64,000 nucleotides of DNA, taken from Anthopleura xanthogrammica. Its lineage: Eukaryota > Cnidaria > Anthozoa > Actiniaria > Actiniidae. Location of the stretch: assembly GCA_964019055.1 (NCBI GenBank), contig OZ025210.1, positions 9,828,992 to 9,892,991 of the forward strand. Direction: 5' to 3'. Below are positions 1-51,340 of the stretch, in pieces. A program made the translations under genes and the position numbers. The notes beneath the pieces are model-generated. The model did no database searches. It was not told where the DNA came from and worked only from the letters and a program-made list of their open reading frames with translations. The stretch's first letter is position 1; every line of letters starts with the position of its first letter.

Positions 1-976
1 AGGCAAAGGTCAACGTTTGTCATGTACCCTCCCCCACATAGTTAATGATTTGTCACCAACCGTTGAATCCGTGGCGAGGCTGATCCGTCCGCCGATGAAG
101 TTGTCAAAGTAAAGCGTATATATTTGCGAATTTCGACGGGAAGAAGTGAAGCGATATGGCCATTTTCGGATTGGATGTGTTGGATATTTATTGGGCAAAG
201 GGTAGCCAGTGAAAAATTTGCTGTGGAACAGATTTCTGGCGATTTACGGCCTGTTGAAGCAAAGCACCCGAGTACGAGGATTCCTACCTTGACTTCGTCT
301 TTAGAGAGGAGATAAAATTTCCTAAAATCGCCTTAAAACGCAACCAAACCGTCAGGAAACCACAAAACATGCAATAAAACATTGATATACCGGTAAAGAA
401 ACAATAAAATATGAAATATATTCTATTTTAAAGAAATTTTTTGATCTGCCATACATTCTCTCTATATATATTCAGAACCATAGCTTGGGCTACCTGTGGT
501 ATACAGTGCTAAAAGCTTTTTTTCAGAAGAGGTTGATATTAATGGCACAGAGGTGGGTGTTTTTGTTGATGAATGCACTGTTGTATATGACTTAGTAGAG
601 AATATGGATGGGTGGGGATCACTGTCCCAATATTTGAAATTACAACAACAAATACTGTAACATTGTTTAGCCCCCCCCCCCCCCCCCCCCTCATATATTA
701 TACAGTATTATATGTTGATATGAATGTAAACTGTTTTTTTCAGGTCACCTTGTCTAAGATCTTCATGCGGTACAAACAGGACTTTGGGTCCACTGATACT
801 GATGTTTTGAGGTGTTTATAATCATTTGTATAGACTTGTAAGTTACACCACAAATTCAACAAATCTCTAATAAGAGTATGAATACCAGGGTGGTGAGATA
901 CTTATGGCATAGATAATAAGACTTTTTTGTGAGTATTCATATGTGACGGTGAACTAATTATTGAGGAATAATAAGA

Positions 977-1432
977 TTATAGAATGATTATGATGATAGT
1001 GATGTAGTGATTGATGTAAATGATGATGAAAATGATGTTGATGATGATGATGGTGATGATGATGATGATGGTGATGATATGGTGATGAAGATGATGATGA
1101 AGATGATATAAATGATGAAGATGATGGTGATGGCCGTGATGGTAATAATAATGAAAATGATTATGGTGATGGTCGTGATGGTAGTAATGATGGTGATGGT
1201 GATGATGATGGTGATGATGATGACGATGACGGTGGTGATGGTAATAATAATGATGATGGTGATGATGATGATGGTGAAAGTGCTGATGATGATGGTGATG
1301 ACGATGGTTATAATGATGATGATGATCAATGATGATGATGATCAAGAATAATAATAATATTAATAATAATAATAATAATAATGGTGATGATGATAATAAT
1401 AATAATAATAATATTAATAATAGACAATTGGT
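977..1432. repeat. GAT/AAT trinucleotide microsatellite (copy 1)
   Basis: About 450 bp of imperfect (GAT)n and (GGTGAT)n passing into (AAT)n. Translated frames give only poly-His/Ile/Met, so they are not genes. It repeats in copy 2 (6238-6680) and copy 3 (11463-11905) with small length changes in the AAT part. Confidence 0.95.
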
Positions 1433-2377
1433 GATAAAATGATTTCTTTTTACCTAAACACATTCTTACAAAAGAAATGACAATTTGAGAAAAAAATAAC
1501 TAACTCTTATTGTCCTAATCCTATATTTTTTCCACTTTCGCATATGGATATCTCAGTACCTACCACTACACAAGGAATCAGAAATGAAAGAAGTATTAAA
1601 AGCGAATGGAAAATGACGAAAAGATGGTCATCAAAGCTAAAGAATATAACTGGAATCTAAATAAGCTGTAAAATACAGACCCGTTACTATGACCTCGGAA
1701 GGGGGGCGGGGGTTGTTTTTTTGCCAATCTCAGTTATTGCATTTTTATGCATCCAACTTTACTCACAGAAAGGGGGGGGGGGGTGGGGATTCGTTCGAAC
1801 CGTACAACCACCCCTAGCGACGGGCCTGAAATACAAGAATTATATACTTATTCAACATCATAAGAAAAAAAATCAAATTGTACAATAACCATTTCTATAC
1901 AAAATGATTGAATTAAAACTTTTCTAGAAATATATTTTGCTGTCAGATCTATTGAACTCTGATGCTGATTGTTTGGCGCAATCAGAATTGAATATGAAGA
2001 TGCAAAATAATAATAAATTCTAACAAGCAACAATTCTAATTCTAATGCAGTGAATGCCTGTTCCCTATTGTAATGCAGACTGGCTACATAGTTATGTACA
2101 CAGTTTTGTAATAGTTTTTACTCTCGGCTGCGTAGAAATATTTGGCTTTCATCATCAGCCCAACAGTACTCTTAGGATAAGTACTTGGAGTAATACACAC
2201 TTGGAAGCCTTTTTTCAGGGAGTCGACTTTTCAGAAGATTTCGATTGATGATGTGGTTATTTTCAATGAATCTTCTTCTAGATATACTTCCCTCGTCATG
2301 GATATAGTGCTACTGATGCCTCTATACTAATTGGTCTACTTCCCTTCTGACTTGCTGAGCTTACACCCATTTTTATT

Positions 2378-5254
2378 CTAAGTATTCAATGTTGTGATGG
2401 TGACGTCATCACCAATAAGAAAGAAGGCAGCCCAGTACCTTGGTTCCTTGTAGCTCTCTGTTTCTCGCATTTCTTTCATTGCTTGCTGTAGGCTCTTACT
2501 GGCACTCTCTCCTTTCTTTAGATGCGAATAAAATTTCAGCATGAATACTTTAGTTGCGTCGTCAGCAATGGCCCACAATGACGCTACAACAGCACGGGCT
2601 CCTGCAGCAAGAAATGCTCGAGTCATTCCTACCACTCCCTCTGCCTTGATCTCACCACGACCACTATGGCAGCAGCTCAACACAACCAGTTGAGCTCGGA
2701 GACCACTTTCTTGTGCTTCCTGCATTGTCAAGACGTAGTCCTCTTCATCTGGAATCGTTGCTGACGACGTAGATGGAGCCAGAAGAATCTGTCCATTTTC
2801 ACTTCCATGTGCAGCAAAGTGGATAACGGACACACCAACCCGTAGCTTTTGGAGGATTGCTACTTTGGTGGCTTGTCTTCCTATCAATGGATCCACTTCA
2901 AGGAGTTTGGCAATCTCTTTAGCTTCATGTTCGGCACCAGGTAAATTACTAACGGTTTTTTCTTTGCCTTCAAACTTGACTTTTCCAATTTCAGGATTTC
3001 CAACGATCAGCGCTCCTGACTAATAATAATAATAACTTAATCAACATCATCCTCATCATCATCGTTTTCATCAGTCTATACAAAGCGTCACCATTATCCT
3101 CATCATAACACATGCTCACACTTACACAATATACAAGAGAAAAATCCAAAGACGTAAGTTCGAGTCCTGCCTAGAGCATTGGATATTATTTCTCTTGTAT
3201 CTTTGTTTCACTCACACACCACCTAGCCCATTTTTGTAGATTATTTCAATTCTAGATCTGCTCTGCATCCCAATTCACGGTGTTCAGCTTCCCCTTAGAG
3301 ATAAATATTGTCCTAGGATACCCAAAGATACAAGAGAAAAATATCACTGAAATGCCCTTGGCAGGAATCGAACTGACCCACATCTTCGGTTATCTAGTCC
3401 GATGTGTTACAGCCGTTCTCAGTCACACGTTCGAGGCAAAATATCTTGCTCCAGACGCGAACTTGGTGGGCGTCATCTTGACCATTGTTAAATATTCGAA
3501 CATTATACAACGAAAGTCGCTGTCTGTTAGCAGCTAGGTGCTGGTAAACGGTTGGTTACCTTTGAGAAATACATTTGATTGACCGCGTCCACCAAGTTCA
3601 CGTCTGGAGTGAAACTGAATGCTTTGTCTTGAAAGGTCACTTGTGACTCTGAGAACGGCTGTAACCACTACATTAAGGACCAACCACGCTTGATACGCAG
3701 CCAGTCATCATTGGTAACGTAGAAAGTGCTAACCTTATAATGGTGATCATTTGAGGACTCTTGCAGAAGTTTCAAAGTCGTCAAAGAAGGAGACAGACGA
3801 ATGCGTTTCATTTCTGATAGAAATTTGCCTGTCTTTGGATCTTGAAGAGCAGCGAATGGCACCATGAACAAAGGCCCATCAGGGATTATAACGACTTCCT
3901 TCTGCATGAGCTTGTCTTGTACTGGAGCAACTAATGTTTCAAATAATAACTCCAATGGCTTTTCATCGTAGACGTCTTCTTCGTATATACATCTAGCTTG
4001 GGCGGAAACCTTTTTGTCAATTTCATTTCCTTCTGTGTTTTCTCGTTGGGCAACTTGAGATGACTCCGGCACTGCAGGTTCTTGGACAAAATTTTCTTCT
4101 TCACACTCTAGTATTCCCAGTGATCTGTCCTCACAGTCCACTCCTTCCCTAACTTGCATGTTGTCGTAGCTTTTCTTCACAAAATTGGTGATAAATTCAT
4201 TATCATTTTCATTTTTGTCTTCAGCCGACGTTGGGATCTCACTGCGCACACAAAATGATGGATTTCGATGAGCTAGAACCCAAATCTGAACAGCTGGTGG
4301 GGCTGACTTCTCAATACGGGGCGCATCGTAAAACAGAATGCATGGAGTCAGCACCATCATGTCATTAACATCGGTAATCTTTAGTGAACCACTTTTTGAT
4401 GCAGTTTCTTCATGCATGTTGTGTTTCAAGCTCAAAAGATCCCCCAAAGCACGGGCTCGTCCACGCTCAGATACTAGAAGAGCTTCTTCCATCTCTTCAG
4501 TCTTAATGCAGACTTTGCTTAGGAGCTTGTAGGATTTGATAAATGTATCGAAAATAGAAATCTTGAATTGGTCTTTCTCCTTTAAGTCATCAAACAACAA
4601 CTCAAAGCACTGAATACTCTTATATAAGTGTTCTTTTGATTTCCTAATGTGATCAGCGTTGTCATCATATTCATAGTAGCATACACCTAGAAGTATAAGT
4701 TGTTAAATTGATTTGAGTCAAAATAACTGAAAACAGAAGGTGAAGCTAGGTTACCACGTGACCCAAATTTATGTCTACGCATGCTCTGTTTTGTTCACTG
4801 CTGCAGTTTAATCTTAGAATAAGAAATGTATGATATCAATGACCTTGTAATACTTACCAATATTATGATGTGCCACTCCTTCTCTCTGTCTGTCACCTAT
4901 CTCCGTAGCGATGCTAAGATGCTTTTCGTGATATTTAATTGCCTCGTGGTATTTACCTAATGACATATAGGCATTTCCTAAGTTTCCGTAACCACTTCCT
5001 TCTCCTTGTCTGTCACCTATCTCTGTAGCGATCCTAAGCCGCTTTTCGTGATATTTAACTGCCTCGTGGTATTTACCTAATGACACATAGATATTTCCTA
5101 AGTTTCCGTAAGCACTTCCTTCTCCCTGTCTGTCTCCTATCTCCGTGGCGACGCTAAGACATCTTTCATGATATTTAATCGCCTCGTAGTATTTACCTAA
5201 TGACTCGTAGGCACATCCTAAGTTTCCGTAAGCACTTCCTTCTACGTTTGTCAT
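2378..5254 (-). CDS. Short TPR-CHAT protein, duplicated copy 1 (chimeric start)
   Basis: 5'-truncated duplicate of the full gene at 12864-17444. Exons read 5254-4858, 4686-3734 and 3019-2378, with the same GT-AG sites and phases as the parent, giving 663 aa. It holds about 3 TPRs of 40 residues, a linker, and the whole CHAT domain with the HFAAHG histidine and LSCCHSG cysteine intact. The ATG at 5254 comes from the flank joined at the duplication breakpoint (MTNV), not from the parental exon; a stop lies 8 codons upstream in frame. No frameshift or stop was seen. One distinctive difference from the other copies is Lys for Glu in the MQxE motif. Expression is uncertain: the parental promoter is absent. 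It could be a young chimeric gene or a silent remnant. Confidence 0.6.
3127..3440 (-). repeat. tRNA-derived SINE-like relic in CHAT intron 2
   Basis: On the minus strand, about 3440-3350, an anticodon-arm-like hairpin (tcgg...ccga) is followed by gttcgattcctgcc, a good RNA polymerase III B-box, and then a tail ending tctcttgtatctttgg. A second tail-and-B-box copy lies in opposite orientation at 3127-3205 (aagttcgagtcctgcc). No intact tRNA cloverleaf or A-box is seen, so this is a pair of inverted SINE relics rather than a tRNA gene. The same relics recur near 8387-8700 and 13613-13926. Confidence 0.4.
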
Positions 5255-5726
5255 GTACCCTCCCCCACATAGTTAATGATTTGTCACCAACCGTTGAATC
5301 CGTGGCGAGGCTGATCCGTCCGCCGATGAAGTTGTCAAAGTAAAGCGTATATATTTGCGAATTTCGACGGGAAGAAGTGAAGCGATATGGCCATTTTCGG
5401 ATTGGATGTGTTGGATATTTATTGGGCAAAGGGTAGCCAGTGAAAAATTTGCTGTGGAACAGATTTCTGGCGATTTACGGCCTGTTGAAGCAAAGCACCC
5501 GAGTACGAGGATTCCTACCTTGACTTCGTCTTTAGAGAGGAGATAAAATTTCCTAAAATCGCCTTAAAACGCAACCAAACCGTCAGGAAACCACAAAACA
5601 TGCAATAAAACATTGATATACCGGTAAAGAAACAATAAAATATGAAATATATTCTATTTTAAAGAAATTTTTTGATCTGCCATACATTCTCTCTATATAT
5701 ATTCAGAACCATAGCTTGGGCTACCT

Positions 5727-6081
5727 GTGGTATACAGTGAGGATAATCTACAACAGGGGCTTGCTTCTGCTGCTAAAAGCTTTTTTTCAGAAGAGGTTGA
5801 TATTAATGGCACAGAGGTGGGTGTTTTTGTTGATGAATGCACTGTTGTATATGACTTAGTAGAGAATATGGATGGGTGGGGATCACTGTCCCAATATTTG
5901 AAATTACAACAACAAATACTGTAACATTGTTTAGCCCCCCCCCCCCCCCCCTCATATATTATACAGTATTATATGTTGATATGAATGTAAACTGTTTTTT
6001 TCAGGTCACCTTGTCTAAGATCTTCATGCGGTACAAACAGGACTTTGGGTCCACTGATACTGATGTTTTGAGGTGTTTATA
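5727..6081 (+). other. Possible plus-strand coding remnant inside the duplicated unit
   Basis: In copy 2 an open frame from 5727 to 5924 encodes an acidic segment (EEVDINGTEVGVFVDE), followed across a poly-C tract by a pyrimidine-rich tttttttcag acceptor-like site and a second short frame ending in DVLRCL at about 6081. Counterparts lie at ~508-820 and ~10988-11300. Copies 1 and 3 lack 33 bp (11 codons) that keep the frame, which is mildly in favour of coding. I recognise no family, and no promoter or complete gene is visible, so this may be an old gene fragment. Confidence 0.25.
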
Positions 6082-6237
6082 ATCATTTGTATAGACTTGT
6101 AAGTTACACCACAAATTCAACAAATCTCTAATAAGAGTATGAATACCAGGGTGGTGAGATACTTATGGCATAGATAATAAGACTTTTTTGTGAGTATTCA
6201 TATGTGACGGTGAACTAATTATTGAGGAATAATAAGA

Positions 6238-6680
6238 TTATAGAATGATTATGATGATAGTGATGTAGTGATTGATGTAAATGATGATGAAAATGATGTT
6301 GATGATGATGATGGTGATGATGATGATGATGGTGATGATATGGTGATGAAGATGATGATGAAGATGATATAAATGATGAAGATGATGGTGATGGCCGTGA
6401 TGGTAATAATAATGAAAATGATTATGGTGATGGTCGTGATGGTAGTAATGATGGTGATGGTGATGATGATGGTGATGATGATGACGATGACGGTGGTGAT
6501 GGTAATAATAATGATGATGGTGATGATGATGATGGTGAAAGTGCTGATGATGATGGTGATGACGATGGTTATAATGATGATGATGATCAATGATGATGAT
6601 GATCAAGAATAATAATAATATTAATAATAATAATAATAATAATGGTGATGATGATAATAATAATAATAATATTAATAATA
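6238..6680. repeat. GAT/AAT trinucleotide microsatellite (copy 2)
   Basis: Same array as at 977-1432, with the AAT run shortened by one triplet. Confidence 0.95.
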
Positions 6681-7637
6681 GACAATTGGTGATAAAATGA
6701 TTTCTTTTTACCTAAACACATTCTTACAAAAGAAATGACAATTTGAGAAAAAAATAACTAACTCTTATTGTCCTAATCCTATATTTTTTCCACTTTCGCA
6801 TATGGATATCTCAGTACCTACCACTACACAAGGAATCAGAAATGAAAGAAGTATTAAAAGCGAATGGAAAATGACGAAAAGATGGTCATCAAAGCTAAAG
6901 AATATAACTGGAATCTAAATAAGCTGTAAAATACAGACCCGTTACTATGACCTCGGAAGGGGGGCGGGGGTTGTTTTTTTGCCAATCTCAGTTATTGCAT
7001 TTTTATGCATCCAACTTTACTCACAGAAAGGGGGGGGGGGGGGTGGGGATTCGTTCGAACCGTACAACCACCCCTAGCGACGGGCCTGAAATACAAGAAT
7101 TATATACTTATTCAACATCATAAGAAAAAAAATCAAATTGTACAATAACCATTTCTATACAAAATGATTGAATTAAAACTTTTCTAGAAATATATTTTGC
7201 TGTCAGATCTATTGAACTCTGATGCTGATTGTTTGGCGCAATCAGAATTGAATATGAAGATGCAAAATAATAATAAATTCTAACAAGCAACAATTCTAAT
7301 TCTAATGCAGTGAATGCCTGTTCCCTATTGTAATGCAGACTGGCTACATAGTTATGTACACAGTTTTGTAATAGTTTTTACTCTCGGCTGCGTAGAAATA
7401 TTTGGCTTTCATCATCAGCCCAACAGTACTCTTAGGATAAGTACTTGGAGTAATACACACTTGGAAGCCTTTTGTCAGGGAGTCGACTTTTCAGAAGATT
7501 TCGATTGATGATGTGGTTATTTTCAATGAATCTTCTTCTAGATATACTTCCCTCGTCATGGATATAGTGCTACTGATGCCTCTATACTAATTGGTCTACT
7601 TCCCTTCTGACTTGCTGAGCTTACACCCATTTTTATT

Positions 7638-10514
7638 CTAAGTATTCAATGTTGTGATGGTGACGTCATCACCAATAAGAAAGAAGGCAGCCCAGTACCT
7701 TGGTTCCTTGTAGCTCTCTGTTTCTCGCATTTCTTTCATTGCTTGCTGTAGGCTCTTACTGGCACTCTCTCCTTTCTTTAGATGCGAATAAAATTTCAGC
7801 ATGAATACTTTAGTTGCGTCGTCAGCAATGGCCCACAATGACGCTACAACAGCACGGGCTCCTGCAGCAAGAAATGCTCGAGTCATTCCTACCACTCCCT
7901 CTGCCTTGATCTCACCACGACCACTATGGCAGCAGCTCAACACAACCAGTTGAGCTCGGAGACCACTTTCTTGTGCTTCCTGCATTGTCAAGACGTAGTC
8001 CTCTTCATCTGGAATCGTTGCTGACGACATAGATGGAGCCAGAAGAATCTGTCCATTTTCACTTCCATGTGCAGCAAAGTGGATAACGGACACACCAACC
8101 CGTAGCTTTTGGAGGATTGCTACTTTGGTGGCTTGTCTTCCTATCAATGGATCCACTTCAAGGAGTTTGGCAATCTCTTTAGCTTCATGTTCGGCACCAG
8201 GTAAATTACTAACGGTTTTTTCTTTGCCTTCAAACTTGACTTTTCCAATTTCAGGATTTCCAACGATCAGCGCTCCTGACTTATAATAATAATAACTTAA
8301 TCAACATCATCCTCATCATCATCGTTTTCATCAGTCTATACAAAGCGTCACCATTATCCTCATCATAACACATGCTCACACTTACACAATATACAAGAGA
8401 AAAATCCAAAGACGTAAGTTCGAGTCCTGCCTAGAGCATTGGATATTATTTCTCTTGTATCTTTGTTTCACTCACACACCACCTAGCCCATTTTTGTAGA
8501 TTATTTCAATTCTAGATCTGCTCTGCATCCCAATTCACGGTGTTCAGCTTCCCCTTAGAGATAAATATTGTCCTAGGATACCCAAAGATACAAGAGAAAA
8601 ATATCACTGAAATGCCCTTGGCAGGAATCGAACTGACCCACATCTTCGGTTATCTAGTCCGATGTGTTACAGCCGTTCTCAGTCACACGTTCGAGGCAAA
8701 ATATCTTGCTCCAGACGCGAACTTGGTGGGCGTCATCTTGACCATTGTTAAATATTCGAACATTATACAACGAAAGTCGCTGTCTGTTAGCAGCTAGGTG
8801 CTGGTAAACGGTTGGTTACCTTTGAGAAATACATTTGATTGACCGCGTCCACCAAGTTCACGTCTGGAGTGAAACTGAATGCTTTGTCTTGAAAGGTCAC
8901 TTGTGACTCTGAGAACGGCTGTAACCACTACATTAAGGACCAACCACGCTTGATACGCAGCCAGTCATCATTGGTAACGTAGAAAGTGCTAACCTTATAA
9001 TGGTGATCATTTGAGGACTCTTGCAGAAGTTTCAAAGTCGTCAAAGAAGGAGACAGACGAATGCGTTTCATTTCTGATAGAAATTTGCCTGTCTTTGGAT
9101 CTTGAAGAGCAGCGAATGGCACCATGAACAAAGGCCCATCAGGGATTATAACGACTTCCTCCTGCATGAGCTTGTCTTGTACTGGAGCAACTAATGTTTC
9201 AAATAATAACTCCAATGGCTTTTCATCGTAGACGTCTTCTTCGTATATACATCTAGCTTGGGCGGAAACCTTTTTGTCAATTTCATTTCCTTCTGTGTTT
9301 TCTCGTTGGGCAACTTGAGATGACTCCGGCACTGCAGGTTCTTGGACAAAATTTTCTTCTTCACACTCTAGTATTCCCAGTGATCTGTCCTCACAGTCCA
9401 CTCCTTCCCTAACTTGCATGTTGTCGTAGCTTTTCTTCACAAAATTGGTGATAAATTCATTATCATTTTCATTTTTGTCTTCAGCCGACGTTGGGATCTC
9501 ACTGCGCACACAAAATGATGGATTTCGATGAGCTAGAACCCAAATCTGAACAGCTGGTGGGGCTGACTTCTCAATACGGGGCGCATCGTAAAACAGAATG
9601 CATGGAGTCAGCACCATCATGTCATTAACATCGGTAATCTTTAGTGAACCACTTTTTGATGCAGTTTCTTCATGCATGTTGTGTTTCAAGCTCAAAAGAT
9701 CCCCCAAAGCACGGGCTCGTCCACGCTCAGATACTAGAAGAGCTTCTTCCATCTCTTCAGTCTTAATGCAGACTTTGCTTAGGAGCTTGTAGGATTTGAT
9801 AAATGTATCGAAAATAGAAATCTTGAATTGGTCTTTCTCCTTTAAGTCATCAAACAACAACTCAAAGCACTGAATACTCTTATATAAGTGTTCTTTTGAT
9901 TTCCTAATGTGATCAGCGTTGTCATCATATTCATAGTAGCATACACCTAGAAGTATAAGTTGTTAAATTGATTTGAGTCAAAATAACTGAAAACAGAAGG
10001 TGAAGCTAGGTTACCACGTGACCCAAATTTATGTCTACGCATGCTCTGTTTTGTTCACTGCTGCAGTTTAATCTTAGAATAAGAAATGTATGATATCAAT
10101 GACCTTGTAATACTTACCAATATTATGATGTGCCACTCCTTCTCTCTGTCTGTCACCTATCTCCGTAGCGATGCTAAGATGCTTTTCGTGATATTTAATT
10201 GCCTCGTGGTATTTACCTAATGACATATAGGCATTTCCTAAGTTTCCGTAACCACTTCCTTCTCCTTGTCTGTCACCTATCTCTGTAGCGATCCTAAGCC
10301 GCTTTTCGTGATATTTAACTGCCTCGTGGTATTTACCTAATGACACATAGATATTTCCTAAGTTTCCGTAAGCACTTCCTTCTCCCTGTCTGTCTCCTAT
10401 CTCCGTGGCGACGCTAAGACATCTTTCATGATATTTAATCGCCTCGTAGTATTTACCTAATGACTCGTAGGCACATCCTAAGTTTCCGTAAGCACTTCCT
10501 TCTACGTTTGTCAT
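7638..10514 (-). CDS. Short TPR-CHAT protein, duplicated copy 2 (chimeric start)
   Basis: Exons 10514-10118, 9946-8994 and 8279-7638 keep open frames and the parental splice sites, predicting a 663-aa protein with three TPRs followed by CHAT. As in copy 1, the start codon at 10514 is supplied by the junction sequence. Compared with its sisters it carries Met in place of Thr in the segment between the catalytic His and Cys motifs (SMSS against STSS). The sequence upstream of the start is the region that lies downstream of the ancestral gene, so any promoter would be newly recruited. Alternatively the exons could serve as extra terminal exons for transcripts reading through from the full gene. 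Confidence 0.6.
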
Positions 10515-13500
10515 GTACCCTCCCCCACATAGTTAATGATTTGTCACCAACCGTTGAATCCGTGGCGAGGCTGATCCGTCCGCCGATGAAGTTGTCAAAG
10601 TAAAGCGTATATATTTGCGAATTTCGACGGGAAGAAGTGAAGCGATATGGCCATTTTCGGATTGGATGTGTTGGATATTTATTGGGCAAAGGGTAGCCAG
10701 TGAAAAATTTGCTGTGGAACAGATTTCTGGCGATTTACGGCCTGTTGAAGCAAAGCACCCGAGTACGAGGATTCCTACCTTGACTTCGTCTTTAGAGAGG
10801 AGATAAAATTTCCTAAAATCGCCTTAAAACGCAACCAAACCGTCAGGAAACCACAAAACATGCAATAAAACATTGATATACCGGTAAAGAAACAATAAAA
10901 TATGAAATATATTCTATTTTAAAGAAATTTTTTGATCTGCCATACATTCTCTCTATATATATTCAGAACCATAGCTTGGGCTACCTGTGGTATACAGTGC
11001 TAAAAGCTTTTTTTCAGAAGAGGTTGATATTAATGGCACAGAGGTGGGTGTTTTTGTTGATGAATGCACTGTTGTATATGACTTAGTAGAGAATATGGAT
11101 GGGTGGGGATCACTGTCCCAATATTTGAAATTACAACAACAAATACTGTAACATTGTTTAGCCCCCCCCCCCCCCCTCATATATTATACAGTATTATATG
11201 TTGATATGAATGTAAACTGTTTTTTTCAGGTCACCTTGTCTAAGATCTTCATGCGGTACAAACAGGACTTTGGGTCCACTGATACTGATGTTTTGAGGTG
11301 TTTATAATCATTTGTATAGACTTGTAAGTTACACCACAAATTCAACAAATCTCTAATAAGAGTATGAATACCAGGGTGGTGAGATACTTATGGCATAGAT
11401 AATAAGACTTTTTTGTGAGTATTCATATGTGACGGTGAACTAATTATTGAGGAATAATAAGATTATAGAATGATTATGATGATAGTGATGTAGTGATTGA
11501 TGTAAATGATGATGAAAATGATGTTGATGATGATGATGGTGATGATGATGATGATGGTGATGATATGGTGATGAAGATGATGATGAAGATGATATAAATG
11601 ATGAAGATGATGGTGATGGCCGTGATGGTAATAATAATGAAAATGATTATGGTGATGGTCGTGATGGTAGTAATGATGGTGATGGTGATGATGATGGTGA
11701 TGATGATGACGATGACGGTGGTGATGGTAATAATAATGATGATGGTGATGATGATGATGGTGAAAGTGCTGATGATGATGGTGATGACGATGGTTATAAT
11801 GATGATGATGATCAATGATGATGATGATCAAGAATAATAATAATATTAATAATAATAATAATAATAATGGTGATGATGATAATAATAATAATAATATTAA
11901 TAATAGACAATTGGTGATAAAATGATTTCTTTTTACCTAAACACATTCTTACAAAAGAAATGACAATTTGAGAAAAAAATAACTAACTCTTATTGTCCTA
12001 ATCCTATATTTTTTCCACTTTCGCATATGGATATCTCAGTACCTACCACTACACAAGGAATCAGAAATGAAAGAAGTATTAAAAGCGAATGGAAAATGAC
12101 GAAAAGATGGTCATCAAAGCTAAAGAATATAACTGGAATCTAAATAAGCTGTAAAATACAGACCCGTTACTATGACCTCGGAAGGGGGGCGGGGGTTGTT
12201 TTTTTGCCAATCTCAGTTATTGCATTTTTATGCATCCAACTTTACTCACAGAAAGGGGGGGGGGGGGGGTGGGGATTCGTTCGAACCGTACAACCACCCC
12301 TAGCGACGGGCCTGAAATACAAGAATTATATACTTATTCAACATCATAAGAAAAAAAATCAAATTGTACAATAACCATTTCTATACAAAATGATTGAATT
12401 AAAACTTTTCTAGAAATATATTTTGCTGTCAGATCTATTGAACTCTGATGCTGATTGTTTGGCGCAATCAGAATTGAATATGAAGATGCAAAATAATAAT
12501 AAATTCTAACAAGCAACAATTCTAATTCTAATGCAGTGAATGCCTGTTCCCTATTGTAATGCAGACTGGCTACATAGTTATGTACACAGTTTTGTAATAG
12601 TTTTTACTCTCGGCTGCGTAGAAATATTTGGCTTTCATCATCAGCCCAACAGTACTCTTAGGATAAGTACTTGGAGTAATACACACTTGGAAGCCTTTTG
12701 TCAGGGAGTCGACTTTTCAGAAGATTTCGATTGATGATGTGGTTATTTTCAATGAATCTTCTTCTAGATATACTTCCCTCGTCATGGATATAGTGCTACT
12801 GATGCCTCTATACTAATTGGTCTACTTCCCTTCTGACTTGCTGAGCTTACACCCATTTTTATTCTAAGTATTCAATGTTGTGATGGTGACGTCATCACCA
12901 ATAAGAAAGAAGGCAGCCCAGTACCTTGGTTCCTTGTAGCTCTCTGTTTCTCGCATTTCTTTCATTGCTTGCTGTAGGCTCTTACTGGCACTCTCTCCTT
13001 TCTTTAGATGCGAATAAAATTTCAGCATGAATACTTTAGTTGCGTCGTCAGCAATGGCCCACAATGACGCTACAACAGCACGGGCTCCTGCAGCAAGAAA
13101 TGCTCGAGTCATTCCTACCACTCCCTCTGCCTTGATCTCACCACGACCACTATGGCAGCAGCTCAACACAACCAGTTGAGCTCGGAGACCACTTTCTTGT
13201 GCTTCCTGCATTGTCAAGACGTAGTCCTCTTCATCTGGAATCGTTGCTGACGACGTAGATGGAGCCAGAAGAATCTGTCCATTTTCACTTCCATGTGCAG
13301 CAAAGTGGATAACGGACACACCAACCCGTAGCTTTTGGAGGATTGCTACTTTGGTGGCTTGTCTTCCTATCAATGGATCCACTTCAAGGAGTTTGGCAAT
13401 CTCTTTAGCTTCATGTTCGGCACCAGGTAAATTACTAACGGTTTTTTCTTTGCCTTCAAACTTGACTTTTCCAATTTCAGGATTTCCAACGATCAGCGCT

Positions 13501-15729
13501 CCTGACTTATAATAATAATAACTTAATCAACATCATCCTCATCATCATCGTTTTCATCAGTCTATACAAAGCGTCACCATTATCCTCATCATAACACATG
13601 CTCACACTTACACAATATACAAGAGAAAAATCCAAAGACGTAAGTTCGAGTCCTGCCTAGAGCATTGGATATTATTTCTCTTGTATCTTTGTTTCACTCA
13701 CACACCACCTAGCCCATTTTTGTAGATTATTTCAATTCTAGATCTGCTCTGCATCCCAATTCACGGTGTTCAGCTTCCCCTTAGAGATAAATATTGTCCT
13801 AGGATACCCAAAGATACAAGAGAAAAATATCACTGAAATGCCCTTGGCAGGAATCGAACTGACCCACATCTTCGGTTATCTAGTCCGATGTGTTACAGCC
13901 GTTCTCAGTCACACGTTCGAGGCAAAATATCTTGCTCCAGACGCGAACTTGGTGGGCGTCATCTTGACCATTGTTAAATATTCGAACATTATACAACGAA
14001 AGTCGCTGTCTGTTAGCAGCTAGGTGCTGGTAAACGGTTGGTTACCTTTGAGAAATACATTTGATTGACCGCGTCCACCAAGTTCACGTCTGGAGTGAAA
14101 CTGAATGCTTTGTCTTGAAAGGTCACTTGTGACTCTGAGAACGGCTGTAACCACTACATTAAGGACCAACCACGCTTGATACGCAGCCAGTCATCATTGG
14201 TAACGTAGAAAGTGCTAACCTTATAATGGTGATCATTTGAGGACTCTTGCAGAAGTTTCAAAGTCGTCAAAGAAGGAGACAGACGAATGCGTTTCATTTC
14301 TGATAGAAATTTGCCTGTCTTTGGATCTTGAAGAGCAGCGAATGGCACCATGAACAAAGGCCCATCAGGGATTATAACGACTTCCTCCTGCATGAGCTTG
14401 TCTTGTACTGGAGCAACTAATGTTTCAAATAATAACTCCAATGGCTTTTCATCGTAGACGTCTTCTTCGTATATACATCTAGCTTGGGCGGAAACCTTTT
14501 TGTCAATTTCATTTCCTTCTGTGTTTTCTCGTTGGGCAACTTGAGATGACTCCGGCACTGCAGGTTCTTGGACAAAATTTTCTTCTTCACACTCTAGTAT
14601 TCCCAGTGATCTGTCCTCACAGTCCACTCCTTCCCTAACTTGCATGTTGTCGTAGCTTTTCTTCACAAAATTGGTGATAAATTCATTATCATTTTCATTT
14701 TTGTCTTCAGCCGACGTTGGGATCTCACTGCGCACACAAAATGATGGATTTCGATGAGCTAGAACCCAAATCTGAACAGCTGGTGGGGCTGACTTCTCAA
14801 TACGGGGCGCATCGTAAAACAGAATGCATGGAGTCAGCACCATCATGTCATTAACATCGGTAATCTTTACTGAACCACTTTTTGATGCAGTTTCTTCATG
14901 CATGTTGTGTTTCAAGCTCAAAAGATCCCCCAAAGCACGGGCTCGTCCACGCTCAGATACTAGAAGAGCTTCTTCCATCTCTTCAGTCTTAATGCAGACT
15001 TTGCTTAGGAGCTTGTAGGATTTGATAAATGTATCGAAAATAGAAATCTTGAATTGGTCTTTCTCCTTTAAGTCATCAAACAACAACTCAAAGCACTGAA
15101 TACTCTTATATAAGTGTTCTTTTGATTTCCTAATGTGATCAGCGTTGTCATCATATTCATAGTAGCATACACCTAGAAGTATAAGTTGTTAAATTGATTT
15201 GAGTCAAAATAACTGAAAACAGAAGGTGGAGCTAGGTTACCACGTGACCCAAATTTATGTCTACGCATGCTCTGTTTTGTTCACTGCTGCAGTTTAATCT
15301 TAGAATAAGAAATGTATGATATCAATGACCTTGTAATACTTACCAATATTATGATGTGCCACTCCTTCTCTCTGTCTGTCACCTATCTCCGTAGCGATGC
15401 TAAGATGCTTTTCGTGATATTTAATTGCCTCGTGGTATTTACCTAATGACATATAGGCATTTCCTAAGTTTCCGTAACCACTTCCTTCTCCTTGTCTGTC
15501 ACCTATCTCTGTAGCGATCCTAAGCCGCTTTTCGTGATATTTAACTGCCTCGTGGTATTTACCTAATGACACATAGATATTTCCTAAGTTTCCGTAAGCA
15601 CTTCCTTCTCCCTGTCTGTCTCCTATCTCCGTGGCGACGCTAAGACATCTTTCATGATATTTAATCGCCTCGTAGTATTTACCTAATGACTCGTAGGCAC
15701 ATCCTAAGTTTCCGTAAGCACTTCCTTCT
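10504..15729. repeat. Tandem duplication unit, copy 3 (5226 bp)
   Basis: Right-hand copy. At 15730 the sequence does not jump to another unit but runs on through the remaining TPR repeats of the full-length gene, so 15729/15730 is the original right breakpoint. The poly-C tract is 15 and the poly-G tract 15. The breakpoints share only about 2 bp (ac), which suggests end-joining or replication slippage rather than recombination between long repeats. Confidence 0.93.
11463..11905. repeat. GAT/AAT trinucleotide microsatellite (copy 3)
   Basis: Same array as at 977-1432, in the third unit. Confidence 0.95.
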
Positions 15730-17444
15730 ACCTGTCTGTCACCTATCTCCGTAGCGACGCTAAGACACATTTCGTGATATTTAATTGCCTCATGGTATTT
15801 GCCTAATGATTGATAGTCAGATCCTAAGCTTCGGTAAGCACTTTCTTCTACCCGTCCGTCACCTATCTCCTTAGCGATGCTAAGACATCTTTCGTGATAT
15901 TTAATTGCCTCCAGGTATTTACCTAATGATTGATAGGCAGTTCCTAAGTTTCCGTTATCACTTCCTTCTCCCTGTCTGTAACCTATCTCCTTAGCGATGC
16001 TAAGACTTTTTCCATGATATGTAATTGCCTCGTGGAATTTACCTAATGAATAATAGGCAGATCCTAAACTTCCGTAAGCACTTCCTTCTCCCTTTCTGTC
16101 ACCTATCTCTGTAGTGATACTAAGACATTTTTCGTAAAATTTAATTGCCTCATGGTATTTACCTAATGACTCATAGGCAGATCCTAAGTTTCCGAAAGCA
16201 CTTCCTTCCCCCTGTCTGTCACCTATCTCCGTAGCAATGCTAAGACATTTTTCGTGATATTTAATTGCCTCGTGGTATTTGCCTAATAAATAATAGGCAT
16301 TTCCTAAGCTTCCGTTAGCACTTCCTTCTCCCTGTCTGTCACCTATCTCTGTAGTGATGCTGAGACATTTTTCGTGATATTTAACTGCCTCGTGGTACTT
16401 GCCTAATGACAGATAGGCATTTCCTAAGCTTACGTAAGCACTTACTTCTCCCTGTCTGTCACCTATCTCCATAGCGATGCTAAGATGCCTTTCCTGATAT
16501 TTAATTGCCTCGTGGTATTTACCTAATGAATCATAAGCAGATCCTAAGGTTCCGTAAGCATTTCCTTCTCCCTGTCTGTCACGTATCTCCATAGCGATGC
16601 TAAGATGCCTTTCCTGATATTTAATTGCCTCGTGGTATTTCCCTAATGACCCATAGGCTTTTCCTAAGTCTCCATAAGCATTTCCTTCTCCCTGTCTGTC
16701 ACCTATCTCCGTAGCGATGCTAAGATGTTTTTCGTGATATTTAATTGCCTCGTAGTATTTACCTAATGACTGATAGGCAATTCCTAAGTTTCCGTAAGCA
16801 CTTCCTTTTCCCTGTTTGTCACCTATCTCTGTAGTGATGCTAAGACACCTTTCGTGATATTTAATTGCCTCGTGGTATTTGCCTAATGAATCATAGGCAT
16901 TTCCTAAGCTTCCGTAAGCAATTCCTTCCCCCTGTCTGTCACCTATCTCCGTAGCGATGCTAAGGCATAGTTCATGATAATTAATTGCCTCGTGGTATTT
17001 GCCTAATGACCGATAGGCATTTCCTAAGTTTCCGTAAGCAATTTCTTCTCCCTGTCTGTCACCTATCTCTGTAGCGATGCTAAGATTTTTTTCGTGATAT
17101 TTCATTGCCTCATGGTATTTGCCTAATGACTGGTAGGCTTTTCCTAATCTTTCGTAGACCAGCATTTGTTCTTTTCTGTCACCAATCTCCATAGCGATGG
17201 TAAGATACTTTTCGTAACATTCAATTGCTTTCGCCAATTGATAACTGTTTTCATACACATCACCAAGTCCCAAATAAATGATTCTCTCAGCGAGGTTGTC
17301 ATGTAAAAAAAGAGTCATCACCAAGCATTCTTCATATAGGCAGATTAGTTCTTCATTTTCCAAACCAGTAAAGTAACCACAAGCTGCATACATCACACAA
17401 GCTTTAATGAAGGGCTTGACTTTCTGAATGAACTCCGGATCCAT
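12864..17444 (-). CDS. TPR-CHAT protein, full length (TTC28-like), 1231 aa
   Basis: Three exons: 17444-15344, 15172-14220 and 13505-12864; phases match, giving 1231 aa. After an N-terminal helical region come about 15 TPRs of exactly 40 residues (consensus [17 protein letters not shown] then [14 protein letters not shown]), residues ~70-700. A linker and CHAT domain follow (~residues 850-1231). CHAT (caspase HetF associated with TPRs) is a caspase/separase-related protease fold; the expected catalytic His lies in HFAAHG (His1089) and the Cys in LSCCHSG (Cys1134 or 1135), so the site looks complete. TPRs usually bind partner proteins. The same architecture occurs in animal TTC28 and, in bacteria, in TPR-CHAT proteases. 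Start chosen at the first ATG (MDPEF) of the open exon. AATAAA overlaps the stop region. Substrate unknown; probably cytoplasmic, with no signal peptide or membrane segment. Confidence 0.85.
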
Positions 17445-17639: not shown

Positions 17640-18845
17640 GATTGAAGGTAGAGGTATCATAGACCCTAATTCCTTAGTATAGAGGGTAGGGGTATCATAG
17701 ACCCTAATTCCTTAGTATAGAGGGTAGGGGTACCATAGACCCTAATTCCTTAGTATAAAGGGTAGGGGTACGATAGACCCTAACTCTTTAGTATAGAGGG
17801 TAGGGGTATCATAGACCCTAATTCCTTAGTATAGAGGGTAGGGGTATCATAGACCCTAATTCCTTAGTATAAAGGGTAGGGGTACGATAGACCCTAACTC
17901 TTTAGTATAGAGGGTAGGGGTATCATAGACCCTAATTCCTTAGTATAGAGGGTAGGGGTATCATAGACCCTAATTCCTTAGTATAGAGGGGAGGGGTACG
18001 ATAGACCCTAACTCTTTAGTATAGAGGGTAGGGGTACCATATAGACCCCAATTCCTTAGCATAGAGGGTAGGGGTATCATAGACCCTAATTCCTTAGTAT
18101 AGAGGGTAGGGGTACCATAGACCCTAATTCCTTAGTATAGAGGGTAGGGGTATCATAAACCCTAATTCCTTAGTATAGAGGGTAGGGGTACGATAGACCC
18201 TAACTCTTTAGTATAGAGGGTAGGGGTACCATATAGACCCTAATTCCTTAGCATAGAGGGTAGGGGTATCATAGACCCTAATTCCTTAGTATAGAGGGTA
18301 GGGGTACCATAGACCCTAATTCCTTAGTATAGAGGGTAGGGGTATCATAGACCCTAATTCCTTAGTATAAAGGGTAGGGGTACCATATAGACCCTAATTC
18401 CTCAGTATAGAGGGTAGGGGTATCATAGACCCTAATTCCTTAGTATAGAGGATAGGGGTATCATAGACCCTAATTCCTTAGTATAGAGGGTAGGGGTATC
18501 ATAGACCCTAATTCTTTAGTATAGAGGGTAGGGGTTTCATAGACCCTAATTCCTTAGTATAAAGGGTAGGGGTTCCATATAGACCCTAATTCCTTAGTAT
18601 AGAGGGTAGGGGTATCATAGACCCTAATTCCTTAGTATAGAGGGTAGGGGTATCATAGACCCTAATTCCTTAGTATAGAGGGTAGGGGTTTCATAGACCC
18701 TAATTCCTTAGTATAGAGGGTAGGGGTTTCATAGACCCTAATTCCTTAGTATAAAGGGTAGGGGTGCCATATAGACCCTAATTCCTTAGTATAGAGGGTA
18801 GGGGTATCACAGACCCTAAGTCCTTATCGTAGAGGGCAGGGGGTA
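17640..18845. repeat. 38-bp satellite array (~30 units)
   Basis: Tandem repeat of 38 bp (some units 40 bp) with core agaccctaattccttagta followed by tagagggtagggg. The hinge between units varies (tatcat, tacgat, taccat, taccatat, tttcat). Variants recur regularly: the tacgat plus ctcttta unit comes every third unit in the left part and then at a spacing of five, which is higher-order structure. Each unit carries CCCTAA on one side and AGGGTAGGGG on the other, partly self-complementary. The array starts about 200 bp upstream of the TPR-CHAT start codon and decays to the right (18800-18900). Confidence 0.93.
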
Positions 18846-19309
18846 TCCCCTTCGTCTTTAGTATAGAGGGCGGGGTGCCATAGGCATAGACGTCGGGGGT
18901 GCCAAGGGTATAGAAGGTATCAAAGGTATCAGGGGTATCTGGGGTACAAAAAGCATCATGAAATTCATGTGACAGGTGGTCGTGATAGATAAAAGAATTT
19001 CGGGGAATGCCTTTGCTAGGGCTGGCGACACTGTGGTGGATTGACCCATTTACACTAGCAATTTTAAAGTGCGACTCGAGTGGCATTTAAATTGCAATTT
19101 TATCGCAAACCCAAATCGCGCATGTAAACACCCGGCGATTTTATTTCAATTTTAAAGCACCAAATCGAATTCAAGTCGCGACCAATTCGAACATGTTCGA
19201 AATTTAGCGTAACCCGCGGCGATTTTCACTAAAAAATCATTGCAAAAGCTGATTTTCCTCCCCTCGGAAGTAAATCTGGCGATCGAGAATGACCACCAGT
19301 AACACTAGT

Positions 19310-32282: not shown

Positions 32283-35200
32283 ATATCTTCGTTTCTTTGT
32301 TCGTGATCTACCTGAATCATGCAGTTAATGGTTAAACTACCATCACCAGCAACATAGCGTAATGGATCATATGCTCCCATGAACCCTTGCCAGTTGAAGG
32401 TTGTGTCCCAAGAGCCAGAGCTAGAATGGAATACGTGGAGTTTCTCTGAAGAAAGATCTTCCATAAAACGTTTTTGGCTTTTTACTGTTAATCTGGATAG
32501 ATTCAAAAAAGTTAATTTCAAGACAATCCTTAAGGTAGTAAAATAACATATTTAATGCTTCAGCTAGAATCCAGCAGTGTTTCATTTTATAAATAAATAA
32601 ATATAATATCTTACCTGCACGATGCGGATATATCCGTATTGTGTACTAGTAGTGTATCGTCAGGATAATTGGAGCCACATTCCTTGTCCAGACAAAGATG
32701 CACTGATACTAGTTTATTCTCCGAGGGGAATAGTCTCAGGTACCAGCTGTAGCCACACAACGAGAAGGTAGAACTTCTGATGGAAGAGTGCCGATATAGA
32801 ATGTAGTAGTTCTTTATTCTCCATGTGTACGTTCTTGAACGTTCCTCGTTTTTCTAAGAAAATAAGTGTATAATGATGTTAACGTGCTTAAAATGTTATT
32901 ACATTGATGTTCATACTTTATATTGTACTTTCCTACCTTAATCTGGTTTAATTCTTCCTTTAGTTGTTTGTTATCTTTGGCCAGCGAAGAACACTGTTCG
33001 GTAAGTGTCGTGTTTTGCTCGGTAAGTGACGAACATTTCTTCGTGAGTATCGAACATTGTCCGGTAAGTGTCGTGCTTTGTTTGGTAAGTGACGAATTCT
33101 GTTTAGTGAGCGATGAACATTGTTTGGCCAGTAACATCATGTGTGCAGCCATGTTGTCTTGTACATGTTTATCAACATGTTGTCGTTCAACTTGGACTGA
33201 ACATCCCTGATCCTTGAATGGACAATCGAGTATTGTCTTGGTACAGTCATTTCTCAGATGGTCGTCTAAGTTACTCCTGCAAACAATCAGAGTTACACTA
33301 TTGTGTCATTCAGTCTCAGCAGGGATGCAGGGATGGAAAAATGTTTTTTTTTCTCCGCCTTTACTTAAAATCGTTCAGTATTTTCCATTTTAACACATAG
33401 GAACCAGGCTGTAAACAAAAGGATACATCACAAGTATCGAATGCCATATTGAACATTCCGTACCTTTTTATCTTGTTCATTTGTCTGGTTCCTGGACATC
33501 TACAGGTGTTGGGACATGGAACCATCTCTTCAGGACAGTCAACATCTTTGTGTACCAGTAGCTCAAGTCGGACCATAACGTTTCTGCATTTCTGACATCT
33601 CACCTTTTTATACTCGAATATCTTGTCGTGATCTTCCAGTTCTCTTCTCTGCATGTTGGTGTTGCAGTTCACATTAGGACACTGTACTTGTTGGAAAGAA
33701 CAAGTTTCTCTGTGTTTGGCAAGTAAGTGTAGCTTTTCAGTCCAGTCACACTTGAACTGACTTTTCTTTGTGTCTGTAGACATGAAACAACGTCAGAAAG
33801 TGGAACATAACATGAGCAAGTTAAAAATGAGTAAATATTGACCAAACGACAAGTGTCGAATTTTGGAACATTCACATTCCCTCTGATGTGCGGTGATAAG
33901 AACATGCAGGCTAGGGATATTTGGATCTGTTCCGCTTGAAACTAAATAAATTAGATGTCTACAATCCTACCTAACACTAAGATTTTGCACATTTGTTTGT
34001 GACAAGAAATACAGAACGTCACGTAAGGCGTCATTCTCAACCACTCACCTTCTTTTGCCGCTGTTTGTCCATCATTCTCTGGTGGATGACAGTAGACTTC
34101 AAGGTTTTCTATCATATTTTTCATAGGCAAACATCGTCCAAGACTGTCGAGTTGTAGTGCATTATTGCCAATGGGGCATATCTGTCTGGCCTCCAGGCAT
34201 CGTGTAATGCAATCTTTACAGAAGCTATGCCCATCTTTACATTGCCAGGGATCCTTCAGTACCTCCAAGCTAGAAAGGAAATGACAAGATGAAAAGGCCT
34301 AAGAAACTGTTGAATTTTAAATTGTATTTGTTTCAGTTTACTGACGTATCCAAGAATGAAAGTGTTGGCTACAATCGTAAGGATACAATCTTACAGCGTA
34401 TCTACATCCCTTTTCTTCCTCTCAACTCTTCTCTTCAAACGAAAAGACCGTTGTGATTTATGAACGCTCATTAAAGTGCACCTATCCCCTATCTAACTTA
34501 TATTAAACGTATAATGTTGTGAAGCACTTCTGCGAAGAAAAAAATTGCTTTATGATTTTCAATAAAGTCGCTAAAAATGTTGTTTGGCAGTCGAGGAACA
34601 TTTTGATAATGAAATGTTGGCATGGAATTGTGTTTTTCAGGAATTTTTAGCCATTGGAAAAATTTTTCAGAAACCGATTCTCCAATAAATTTTGTACAGA
34701 AACGTTTTTGTCCACGCGACGCCCTAACCTGAGTATCAGGCCTTCGAAGCGGGGCTTTCGAAGCAGGGACCCAACCCCCCCCCCCCCCCCCCCCCCTCTT
34801 CCCTCATGAGTAGCCGGAGCCCTTGACGACCAATCTGATTGTAGTTTTGAAAACTACATTCGTAAAGTATTTTCTATGCAAATGAGCATAATACCGATGC
34901 TGAGCTTTGGATTGTCAATTAACACTAGTCTATTCTATAACTTCTTTGCCTGGGGAAACGGTTGCATTCGTTGTACCTGTCAACGCTCTTTTGTAGTTTT
35001 ACATTTCTTTTGCATTTATCAGTTGGTAAATTAGCCGCTTGTACTCGGTAGAAAAGATATTCCATTGAGGAGCGCAGATACGAACTAAAAATCCGCTCTG
35101 TAAAGTTAAATTTATTGGGTTGGCTAAACTGACATGTGATTCCTATTATTCATCTGTCTGTATTAAAACCACAAATATTTGGTTTAACTGGGTTAAGTCA

Positions 35201-49272: not shown

Positions 49273-51340
49273 CTATTTGCCATTTACAATACTAATTAAA
49301 TACGAATTTATAATGGAATGCATTTGTTGTATTATAGCAGCCAAACTACTAAACATTCCACGAATGTTAATTAATAAGACATTGATAATAAATATACACA
49401 TAAATATTGCTATGACTTTAGCGTTAAAAGTTCGTTGGCACATCTCTCCTAAAAATTGCTCAAATATACTCGGTCTTCTTTCGCAATCTACCTGAATCAT
49501 GCAGGTAATGATTAAACTACCATCAGCATCGCAGTGAGAGAGCACCTCCTTTGCACACATAAAATCTGGCCATTCTAAAGTTGTGTCCCAAGAGCCAGAG
49601 TTCGAATGCAATACACGGCATTTCTCTTCAGAAAGATCTGGATTATCAATTCCGATAGACCGCATAACCGATAGACTTAAGCTTGGCACTCTCAATCTGG
49701 ATATATTCAGAAAAGATAATTTCAAGACAAAGAATGTTTATGGTAAAATTACTTATTTAACGTTTGTAGTTCCTTCAGCTGGAGTTATCCAGAGCACCGA
49801 GAGTGTCATAGATACATAACGTCTTACCTGCACGATACGGATATATCCGTATTGTCTACTAGTAGTGTATCGTCAGGAGGATTGGAACCACATTCCTCGT
49901 CCAGGCAAAGTTGCACTGATACTTCATTCCCCAGGTATAATCGCAAGTACCAGCTGTAGCCACACAACCAGAAGGTAGGACTTCTGATGGAAGAGTGCCG
50001 TGGTAAGTTGCGGTAGTTTTCTATTTTCCATCTATGCGTTCTTGAAAGTTCATCGTTTTTCTAAGAAAAGAAGCATAATGTTAACATGACTAAAATACTT
50101 GAGAAAAGGTTAATCCATTTAAAAAAATGGTTTTTAATTTTGTCCATTCATTAGATACATGGGCATGTATATTGAAGCGGTATAGAGAACAACTCTCCTA
50201 CCTTAACCCTTGCAAATTCCTCCTTTAGAAGTCGATTGTTTTCAGGTAGTGACAAAATATTTTCTTTCAGTGCAAAACATTGTTCTGTAAGAGTCGTACA
50301 TTTCAATGTGAGTGTCGAACATTCTTCGGCATGTGCCGAACATTCTTCGGCGAGTGTCGTGTTTTGTTCGGTAAGTGACGAATTCTGTTTAGTAAGCGAT
50401 GAACATTGTTTGGCCAGTAACATCATGTGTGCAGCCACGTTGTCTTGTACATGTTTATCAACATGTTGTCGTTCAACTTGGACTAAACATCCCTGGTCCT
50501 TGAATGGACAACCCAGTATTGCCTTGGCACAGTCATTTTCCATATGTTCGTCTAAGATATTCCTGACAACAAACAAATGTATATGTTACACTGTTGGGTC
50601 ATTCGGTCTCTCTGCAGGAAAAGAAAATTTTCCCTTACAAGACATTATTTTCCCGTAATTGGGTCGTTCACACCTTTGGTCTTTGGCAATAGCGGCTGAA
50701 TTGGTGCCGAATGTCAGATCTTTTTGAAAAACTTAGCAGAGAAACTCTCAAGAAAGAATAGAGATTCGTATGCTGCAGTGATGACGTGGCTGAGGACTCG
50801 CTTATCTTTTGATATCTTAATATCAGTACACACAAGTATAAGATGAACCCGTCTGCCTTTCCACAGGTACGATGACATTTTAGATGATTTTCATTTGAAC
50901 ATGATTTTACTGAATTAGAATTTTTCTTACACATCTTATATCATTTCTGTCTTTTATCGTTTTCTATATTTTATATCTATATTTTACACTTATGTTCAGT
51001 GTAAGGCTGTTAATAAAGTTGTTATATATTTTTTGTAAGTTTTGTATTTTTTCGTAAATAATTAGTAAAAATAAATAGTCTTTTAAATCAAAAGTATCGA
51101 AAGCTAAAATATCGAGTATTCCATACCTTTTTATCTTGTTCATTTGTCCGGTTTCTGAACTCATACAGCTGTTGGGACATGGGACCATCTCTTCAGGACA
51201 GTCGTGGGCTTTGTGTACCGGTAGCTTATGTCGGACCAGAACTTGTCCACATTTCTCACATTCCACCGTCTGCATCGTTGTGTTGCGGTTCACAATAGAC
51301 CGGTTATAGGGCACTGTTGTTACTGTTGCAATGTGTTTGG
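49273..51340 (-). CDS. TRAF-like gene D: partial zf-TRAF, coiled coil, MATH, hydrophobic tail
   Basis: Exon ~51340-51127 keeps only the second TRAF finger region (VECEKCGQVLVRHKLPVHKA); about 15 residues holding a finger are deleted (VNRNTTMQ joins TVECEKC) and the first finger Cys are lost. Exon 50562-50202 is the CPFKDQGC finger and coiled coil (TTLAEECSAHAEECSTL), and exon 50060-49828 the first MATH half. The last exon, ending at 49273, carries the second MATH half (LSFLNISRLRV, ITCMIQVDCERR) and a hydrophobic helix (VIAIFMCIFIINVLLINI). The acceptor before the last exon is not recognisable (no AG in register). No RING exon up to 52000. Most likely a decaying paralogue of the membrane-tailed type. 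Confidence 0.55.

Follow-up and report, generated by a model that had tools for sequence, protein, structure and literature searches.

Partial tandem triplication of a TPR-CHAT gene in a sea anemone, with a breakpoint inside the arm of a foldback transposon

In corals, TPR-CHAT genes expand by tandem duplication, and their TPR regions vary in length between 31 and more than 3,000 aa; NAHR or BIR, possibly transposon-aided, is invoked by the authors of the coral study (PMC12314368). In Drosophila yakuba, tandem duplications form chimeric genes, with transcription supported by RNA-seq in 30 cases, and 15 out of 43 putative cases of recruited non-coding sequence are without the parental start codon, as given in the excerpts of that report (PMC5460883). 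About a quarter of the tandem duplications in two Drosophila species are flanked by repeats, according to the portion of the source available (PMC4503668). For Galileo, a Foldback-like element of the P superfamily, the extracts of the published description give long terminal inverted repeats, 7-bp TSDs and a tie to rearrangements, and its authors' proposal is that secondary structure and breaks result from the long TIRs (PMC2775673). On the protein side, the TPR segment of Csx29 relays activation to the CHAT site, as set out in the consulted part of the paper (PMC10028731). A literature query combining transposon, start codon, truncation, tandem duplication, chimera and promoter capture returned no report of such a combination, although the query was narrow and its result is not proof of absence.

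In the present study, a stretch of 64,000 nucleotides from the sea anemone Anthopleura xanthogrammica, referred to here as the window (G000:C5:9828992-9892991), was analysed and the assembly from which it comes (289.8 Mb, 125 contigs) was searched. There are no letters N in the window. Over its first exon, COX1 matches at 100 % identity a cluster of 15 members that carries the label Anemonia viridis; since COX1 evolves slowly in anemones, this match does not name a species. Comparison of the window with itself identified a 5.23-kb unit that is present three times, head to tail, at 99.7-99.9 % identity. This is a clear partial duplication of a known kind, and its breakpoint lies in a foldback element. 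In architecture, number of copies, tandem duplication, and wide spread of TPR lengths the locus resembles the TPR-CHAT genes (TTC28/TPRBK-like) of Acropora and other anthozoans, as far as the seen part of the coral study describes them (PMC12314368). It differs from the Acropora genes in belonging to a sea anemone, in having breakpoints resolved to the base, one of them inside a foldback arm, and in having extra copies without the parental start. As in D. yakuba, the duplication borders fuse gene parts to untranscribed flank; the recruited cases in the excerpts of that report fuse 5′ gene parts to flank (PMC5460883), whereas the present copies, putative as genes, retain the 3′ part. The locus is a base-resolved and very young example of a fast-expanding anthozoan family gaining copies of varied TPR length.

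The boundaries of the units were set from the letters of the junctions, read base by base. At the break, the flank reads ACAAACGT followed by TGACC, the TPR side reads CAGGT followed by AGAAGG, and the fused junction reads ACAAACGT followed by AGAAGG. Read over a longer distance, the unrearranged flank is ...GGGTACATGACAAACGTTGACC, the parental TPR sequence is ...GACAGACAGGTAGAAGG, and the junction is ...TACATGACAAACGTAGAAGG. The microhomology at the switch is 2 bp, GT. The letters of the junction between copies 3 and 2 are identical to those of the junction between copies 2 and 1, which points to a single initial break, followed at a later time by copying of the unit. When a 61-base junction probe was used to search the assembly, there were two full-length exact matches, both at this locus (best 40 of 43 candidates scored).

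The parent gene, which includes copy 3, is on the minus strand and encodes a protein of 1231 aa from a start at 17444 (Table 1). With the parental splice sites applied, the models of copies 1, 2, and 3 contain the terminal stop alone and no frameshift. Both introns retain GT and AG in each of the three copies; donor 1 and acceptor 1 are identical throughout, and the intron-2 acceptor is TTAG in copy 1 and TAAG in copies 2 and 3. By motif count there are 15 TPR units in the parent and three in the short form, a loss of 12. TPR families are found in the short form above the Pfam cut-off, the CHAT domain is present in full (Pfam profile positions 2-289 of 289, E=2.9e-62), and a later in-frame methionine is located at residue 97. 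The first-pass annotation had proposed a triplicate tandem unit containing two short genes, each predicting a 663-aa protein with the parental splice sites, with about 12 TPRs lost, an in-frame ATG ACA AAC supplied by the breakpoint, and an intact CHAT C-terminus. All of these points are borne out, the ATG ACA AAC being read at 5254 and 10514, and the coordinates and counts given there hold on re-reading. Within intron 2 of copy 1 (3100-3700) there is, by eye, an apparent further inverted-repeat element, GTTACAGCCGTTCTCAG...CTGAGAACGGCTGTAAC.

Table 1. Features of the triplicated locus and of the related duplication on contig C2. Positions are those of the window unless a contig is named.
Feature	Position	Strand	Comment
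Copy 1 of unit	13..5243	-	3′ end continues into original downstream flank
Copy 2 of unit (middle)	5244..10503	-	One private SNP and private 33-bp insertion
Copy 3 of unit	10504..15729	-	Parent 3′ part and downstream flank, ends inside foldback-element arm
Unrearranged right-truncated foldback element, window part	1..498	-	Continues below base 1 to ~-225 in L009
Arm fused to TPR codons, copy 2/copy 1 junction	5244..5729	-	Supplies copy 1 with leader and ATG
Arm fused to TPR codons, copy 3/copy 2 junction	10504..10989	-	Supplies copy 2 with leader and ATG
Copy 1 exon 1	4858..5254	-	ATG ACA AAC and 3 TPR units
Copy 1 exon 2	3734..4686	-	Gene model read in frame
Copy 1 exon 3, to stop	2378..3019	-	Predicted protein 663 aa
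Copy 2 exon 1	10118..10514	-	ATG ACA AAC from transposon arm and 3 TPR units
Copy 2 exon 2	8994..9946	-	Copy 1 model read in copy 2
Copy 2 exon 3, to stop	7638..8279	-	Predicted protein 663 aa
Parent exon 1	15344..17444	-	N-terminus and 15 TPR units, 700 complete codons and 1 base
Parent exon 2	14220..15172	-	TPR-region end, linker, CHAT start; offset from copy 1 model, read in frame
Parent exon 3	12864..13505	-	CHAT core with His/Cys pair, to stop
Minisatellite, 38-40-bp units	17641..18883	.	~200 bp upstream of parent ATG, outside duplicated unit
C2 partial duplication	G000:C2:22837610-22849197		Loci L023, L030, L031

The TPR array is N-terminal to a single CHAT domain, which is the arrangement of metazoan TPR-CHAT (TTC28-like) proteins. 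Among the matches listed, Actinia, Exaiptasia, and Actinostola supply the nearest named relatives, annotated as TTC28-like or hypothetical proteins, and the best match of all is 63 % identical. Alignment with the best 120 of 2222 matches shows that His521 is kept in 119 of these 120 relatives and Cys567 in all of them; these two residues, assigned from the caspase pattern, are presumed here to be catalytic. When PDB chains were searched by sequence, the TPR part alone was matched and the CHAT part was matched by none of the best 60 of 71 entries. For structural comparison, a model of the 63 %-identical relative was used (P0001; pLDDT 79, pTM 0.81), and its best matches were Csx29/Craspase (8eey_B, E=2.1e-11) and separase (5u1s_A, E=8.1e-10). 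The likeness to Csx29 and separase lies in these structural matches to the relative's model; the difference is that identity is about 9-13 %, with TM to query of 0.38-0.48 among the best 30 matches, and that protease activity in the anemone family is putative. By analogy, removal of 12 TPRs could alter the control of CHAT.

The flank at the breakpoint is the arm of a dispersed foldback element of 1178 bp, with inverted repeats of 516 bp, about 146 bp between them, and the ends CACAGGTAGCCC...GGGCTACCTGTG. A 75-bp probe from the flank had 40 matches, one of them the window (best 40 of 117 candidates scored), in a count where the two arms of a single element can score twice; the outer 100 bp of the element had 42 matches (best 40 of 346 candidates scored). 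Ten loci were fetched (L010-L019, L011 being the window itself), and three of these, L010, L015, and L018, contain full 1178-bp elements, with arms that are 97.9-99.8 % alike. By eye, a 7-bp TSD is present in four of the five loci that show both ends (L010, L012, L014, and L018; CATAAGA, AAACAAC, ATCAAAC, and CTTTGTA) and absent in L015. The unrearranged copy at the locus is missing most of its other arm. An initial identification of the flank as a MITE of about 290 bp was replaced by this truncated copy of the 1178-bp foldback element. Capture of a promoter from a downstream gene, with ATG ACA AAC as the start of that neighbour, was also considered and rejected: in the unrearranged element this frame runs for just 9 codons before a stop (hand reading), and the nearest further minus-strand gene, a GPCR ORF identified in L009, lies at a distance of about 2.4 kb. 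At L018 847-2024 and L010 1052-2229, the full-length elements have arms 98.8-99.8 % alike and 7-bp TSDs, which suggests that this foldback family has been mobile fairly recently.

The anemone element has the long terminal inverted repeats, the 7-bp TSDs, and the tie to a rearrangement that are described for Galileo. Judged from its letters, it appears to be Galileo-like in form only, because its TSDs do not match the Galileo target consensus, GTAGTAC, given in the extracts of that description (PMC2775673). The Galileo rearrangements described there are inversions caused by ectopic recombination between two copies, whereas the anemone locus shows a tandem duplication that has microhomology at its join (PMC2775673, in part).

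It is likely, at a probability of roughly 0.7, that this locus is the product of a recent partial tandem duplication that later came to have three units, and that copies 1 and 2 are young, little-translated fragments rather than established genes. As read from the letters, one breakpoint lies in the TPR exon and the other near the centre of the palindrome of the foldback transposon, 3′ of the gene; the latter is separated from the loop by about 30 bp. The cause may have been breakage or a collapsed fork at the palindrome, followed by joining via the 2-bp microhomology, and recombination between units would later have turned the first duplicate into a set of three. Copies 1 and 2 are 5′-truncated duplicates in which, fortuitously, a transposon-derived ATG opens onto an uninterrupted frame.

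The donated ATG is at position 476 of the 516 of the arm, and the preceding 475-nt leader is also transposon. Its context is weak, with T at -3 and A at +4. At the parent ATG, positions -3 and +4 are A and G, as they are at the other nine paralogue starts compared (L029 left out). There are seven ATGs ahead of the donated start in the leader, the last of which lies at -16. This one carries an A at its -3 position and begins an out-of-frame ORF of 25 codons that extends across the donated start; relative to the donated ATG, an in-frame stop is located at -21. In simulated joins with the downstream flank in all three phases, an in-frame ATG was found before a stop in 17 % (1180 out of 6804), and in simulated joins inside the transposon arm in 26 % of 1377. 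An in-frame ATG within four codons of the join, as is the case here, was found in 3.8 % of the flank joins. The earlier observation that the joined flank provides the ATG is correct, but the identity of the flank as a transposon arm and the out-of-frame ATG at -16 had been overlooked. Because both junctions are identical, the in-frame rescue of two copies is most simply one breakage event. The suggestion of new-gene birth is not supported, given how often an ATG arises by chance (17-26 %), the weak context, the seven upstream ATGs, and the overlapping ORF at -16.

That both short copies are expressed new genes, with the arm serving as promoter, leader, and start for a short TPR-CHAT protein of altered control, is unlikely. 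In each, a 663-aa frame is open from a start that the parent did not supply, all splice sites are present, the CHAT domain and its His/Cys pair are intact, and an ATG so near the join is uncommon; these observations count against regarding the copies as fragments. The same is true of predicted coral TPR regions, which can be short, from 31 aa upwards, in the part of the study consulted (PMC12314368), and the excerpts on the bacterial TPR-CHAT protease Csx29 have CHAT activity shaped by the TPR (PMC10028731). The start codon, with its weak context, its upstream ATGs, and the out-of-frame overlapping ORF, argues the other way, and the six substitutions among the three copies are too few to gauge selection. 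It is distinctly unlikely that the foldback element both broke the locus and gave a promoter, leader, and start to two working 3-TPR proteins. If it did, this would be a transposon-driven release of a protease-like domain from its repeat regulator, and the duplication on C2, joined within exon 3 and not at this transposon, would show that such reshuffling recurs. If translated, the short copies would provide a CHAT domain with three TPR units and, if expressed, a direct test in animals of the effect of the TPR array on CHAT activity.

Outside the junctions, the three copies differ by six substitutions and at four indel sites. Two substitutions, at copy 1 positions 4743 and 4384 (5′ to 3′ of the gene), are private to copy 3. 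Those at 3901, 3022, and 2214 are private to copy 1, as is a TAT indel at 1413, and copy 2 has a private T at 8029 (copy 1 position 2769) and a private insertion of 33 bp at 5740-5772. Two C/G runs vary in length among the three copies. The coding differences between copies are L/V 234, K/E 395, and T/M 534 (short-form numbering), three nonsynonymous and no synonymous changes in 659 shared codons, which are too few for dN/dS. The 33-bp insertion, a multiple of 3, is inside a plus-strand open stretch, LPVVYSEDNLQQG...KLQQQIL, that has no Pfam match.

A single unequal crossover between a copy 1-type and a copy 3-type unit, located between 4384 and 3901, would produce the observed order of these differences, and the same crossover would hand the middle copy the identical junction. 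By hand count, chance alone would produce the observed sequence of the two copy 3-private and three copy 1-private substitutions in one order out of 10, and in one out of 15 once the TAT indel is included. Unequal crossover is the simplest route to three units, and the order of the differences fits it weakly, since private mutations after the triplication can explain each site. Gene conversion or a haplotype switch in the assembly would produce a pattern that looks alike. Speculatively, the triplication may still be polymorphic in copy number.

Among ten fetched paralogue regions, the one on C2 contains a 5.31-kb partial tandem duplication of its own, at 99.87 % identity. It has a chimeric exon, in which the first codons of exon 3 are fused in frame to TPR codons with the native acceptor in front. 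Its exon 2 has a two-frame match in both copies, and a frameshift into a stop was read in the letters of one copy. Because this paralogue is frameshifted in exon 2 yet carries a chimeric in-frame exon, in-frame joining appears to occur in the TPR-CHAT family where function is doubtful. The usual N-terminus is present in eight of the other nine paralogue regions. In the remaining region, L029 on C11, the N-terminus was not found within its 10 kb; there is a short TPR ORF, and exon 2 is in three pieces. The older three-exon paralogues are under constraint, with dN/dS of 0.14-0.28 for exon 3 (eight comparisons) and 0.38-0.50 for exon 2 (six comparisons), calculated from the ten fetched regions with L023 (C2) and L029 (C11) left out and, for exon 2, also L025 and L028. 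If the dispersed paralogues had a sharp 5′ border in common, this would suggest that a transposon had carried them. Such a border was sought in 36 pairs and no clear one was found; there are two upstream sub-families, and in 21 of the 36 pairs the farthest upstream match is less than 300 bp from the ATG.

Copies 1 and 2 might alternatively act as extra 3′ cassettes for the parent, with read-through transcripts in which exon 1 of the parent is spliced to exon 2 of either short copy. Donor 1 and acceptor 1 are identical and the splice phase is equal in all copies, and the chimeric exon of the C2 paralogue retains its native acceptor, both of which are in keeping with such splicing. Each copy, however, has its own stop and downstream sequence, and read-through must skip the terminal exon of the parent, so this is very unlikely. 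In a variant of the same idea, a lone AG at -7/-6 could, if used, splice parental exon 1 in frame into the fused exon, but this AG in the arm is without a pyrimidine tract and the in-frame stop at -21 (phase read by hand) stands against it.

An assembly artefact, in which a true two-copy locus or two haplotypes were joined and the middle copy came from a haplotype switch, is highly improbable: the order of the differences is what such a switch would give, and heterozygous haplotypes are often less alike than these copies, but copy 2 has a private insertion and a private SNP, which speak against simple duplication by the assembler, the specific junction is present twice in a window without N, and there is a comparable duplication on another contig.

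In the neighbourhood of the locus, tRNA and Rfam scans of the window gave no matches. A plus-strand ORF of 688 aa at 57070-59136 has no Pfam match. Pieces of TRAF/RING-type zinc-finger genes are located nearby, with zf-TRAF above the cut-off at 33361-33783 and 50151-50576, a RING match below the cut-off at 39603-39998, and a further TRAF/RING-type piece, identified by eye, at 118-705 of L009.
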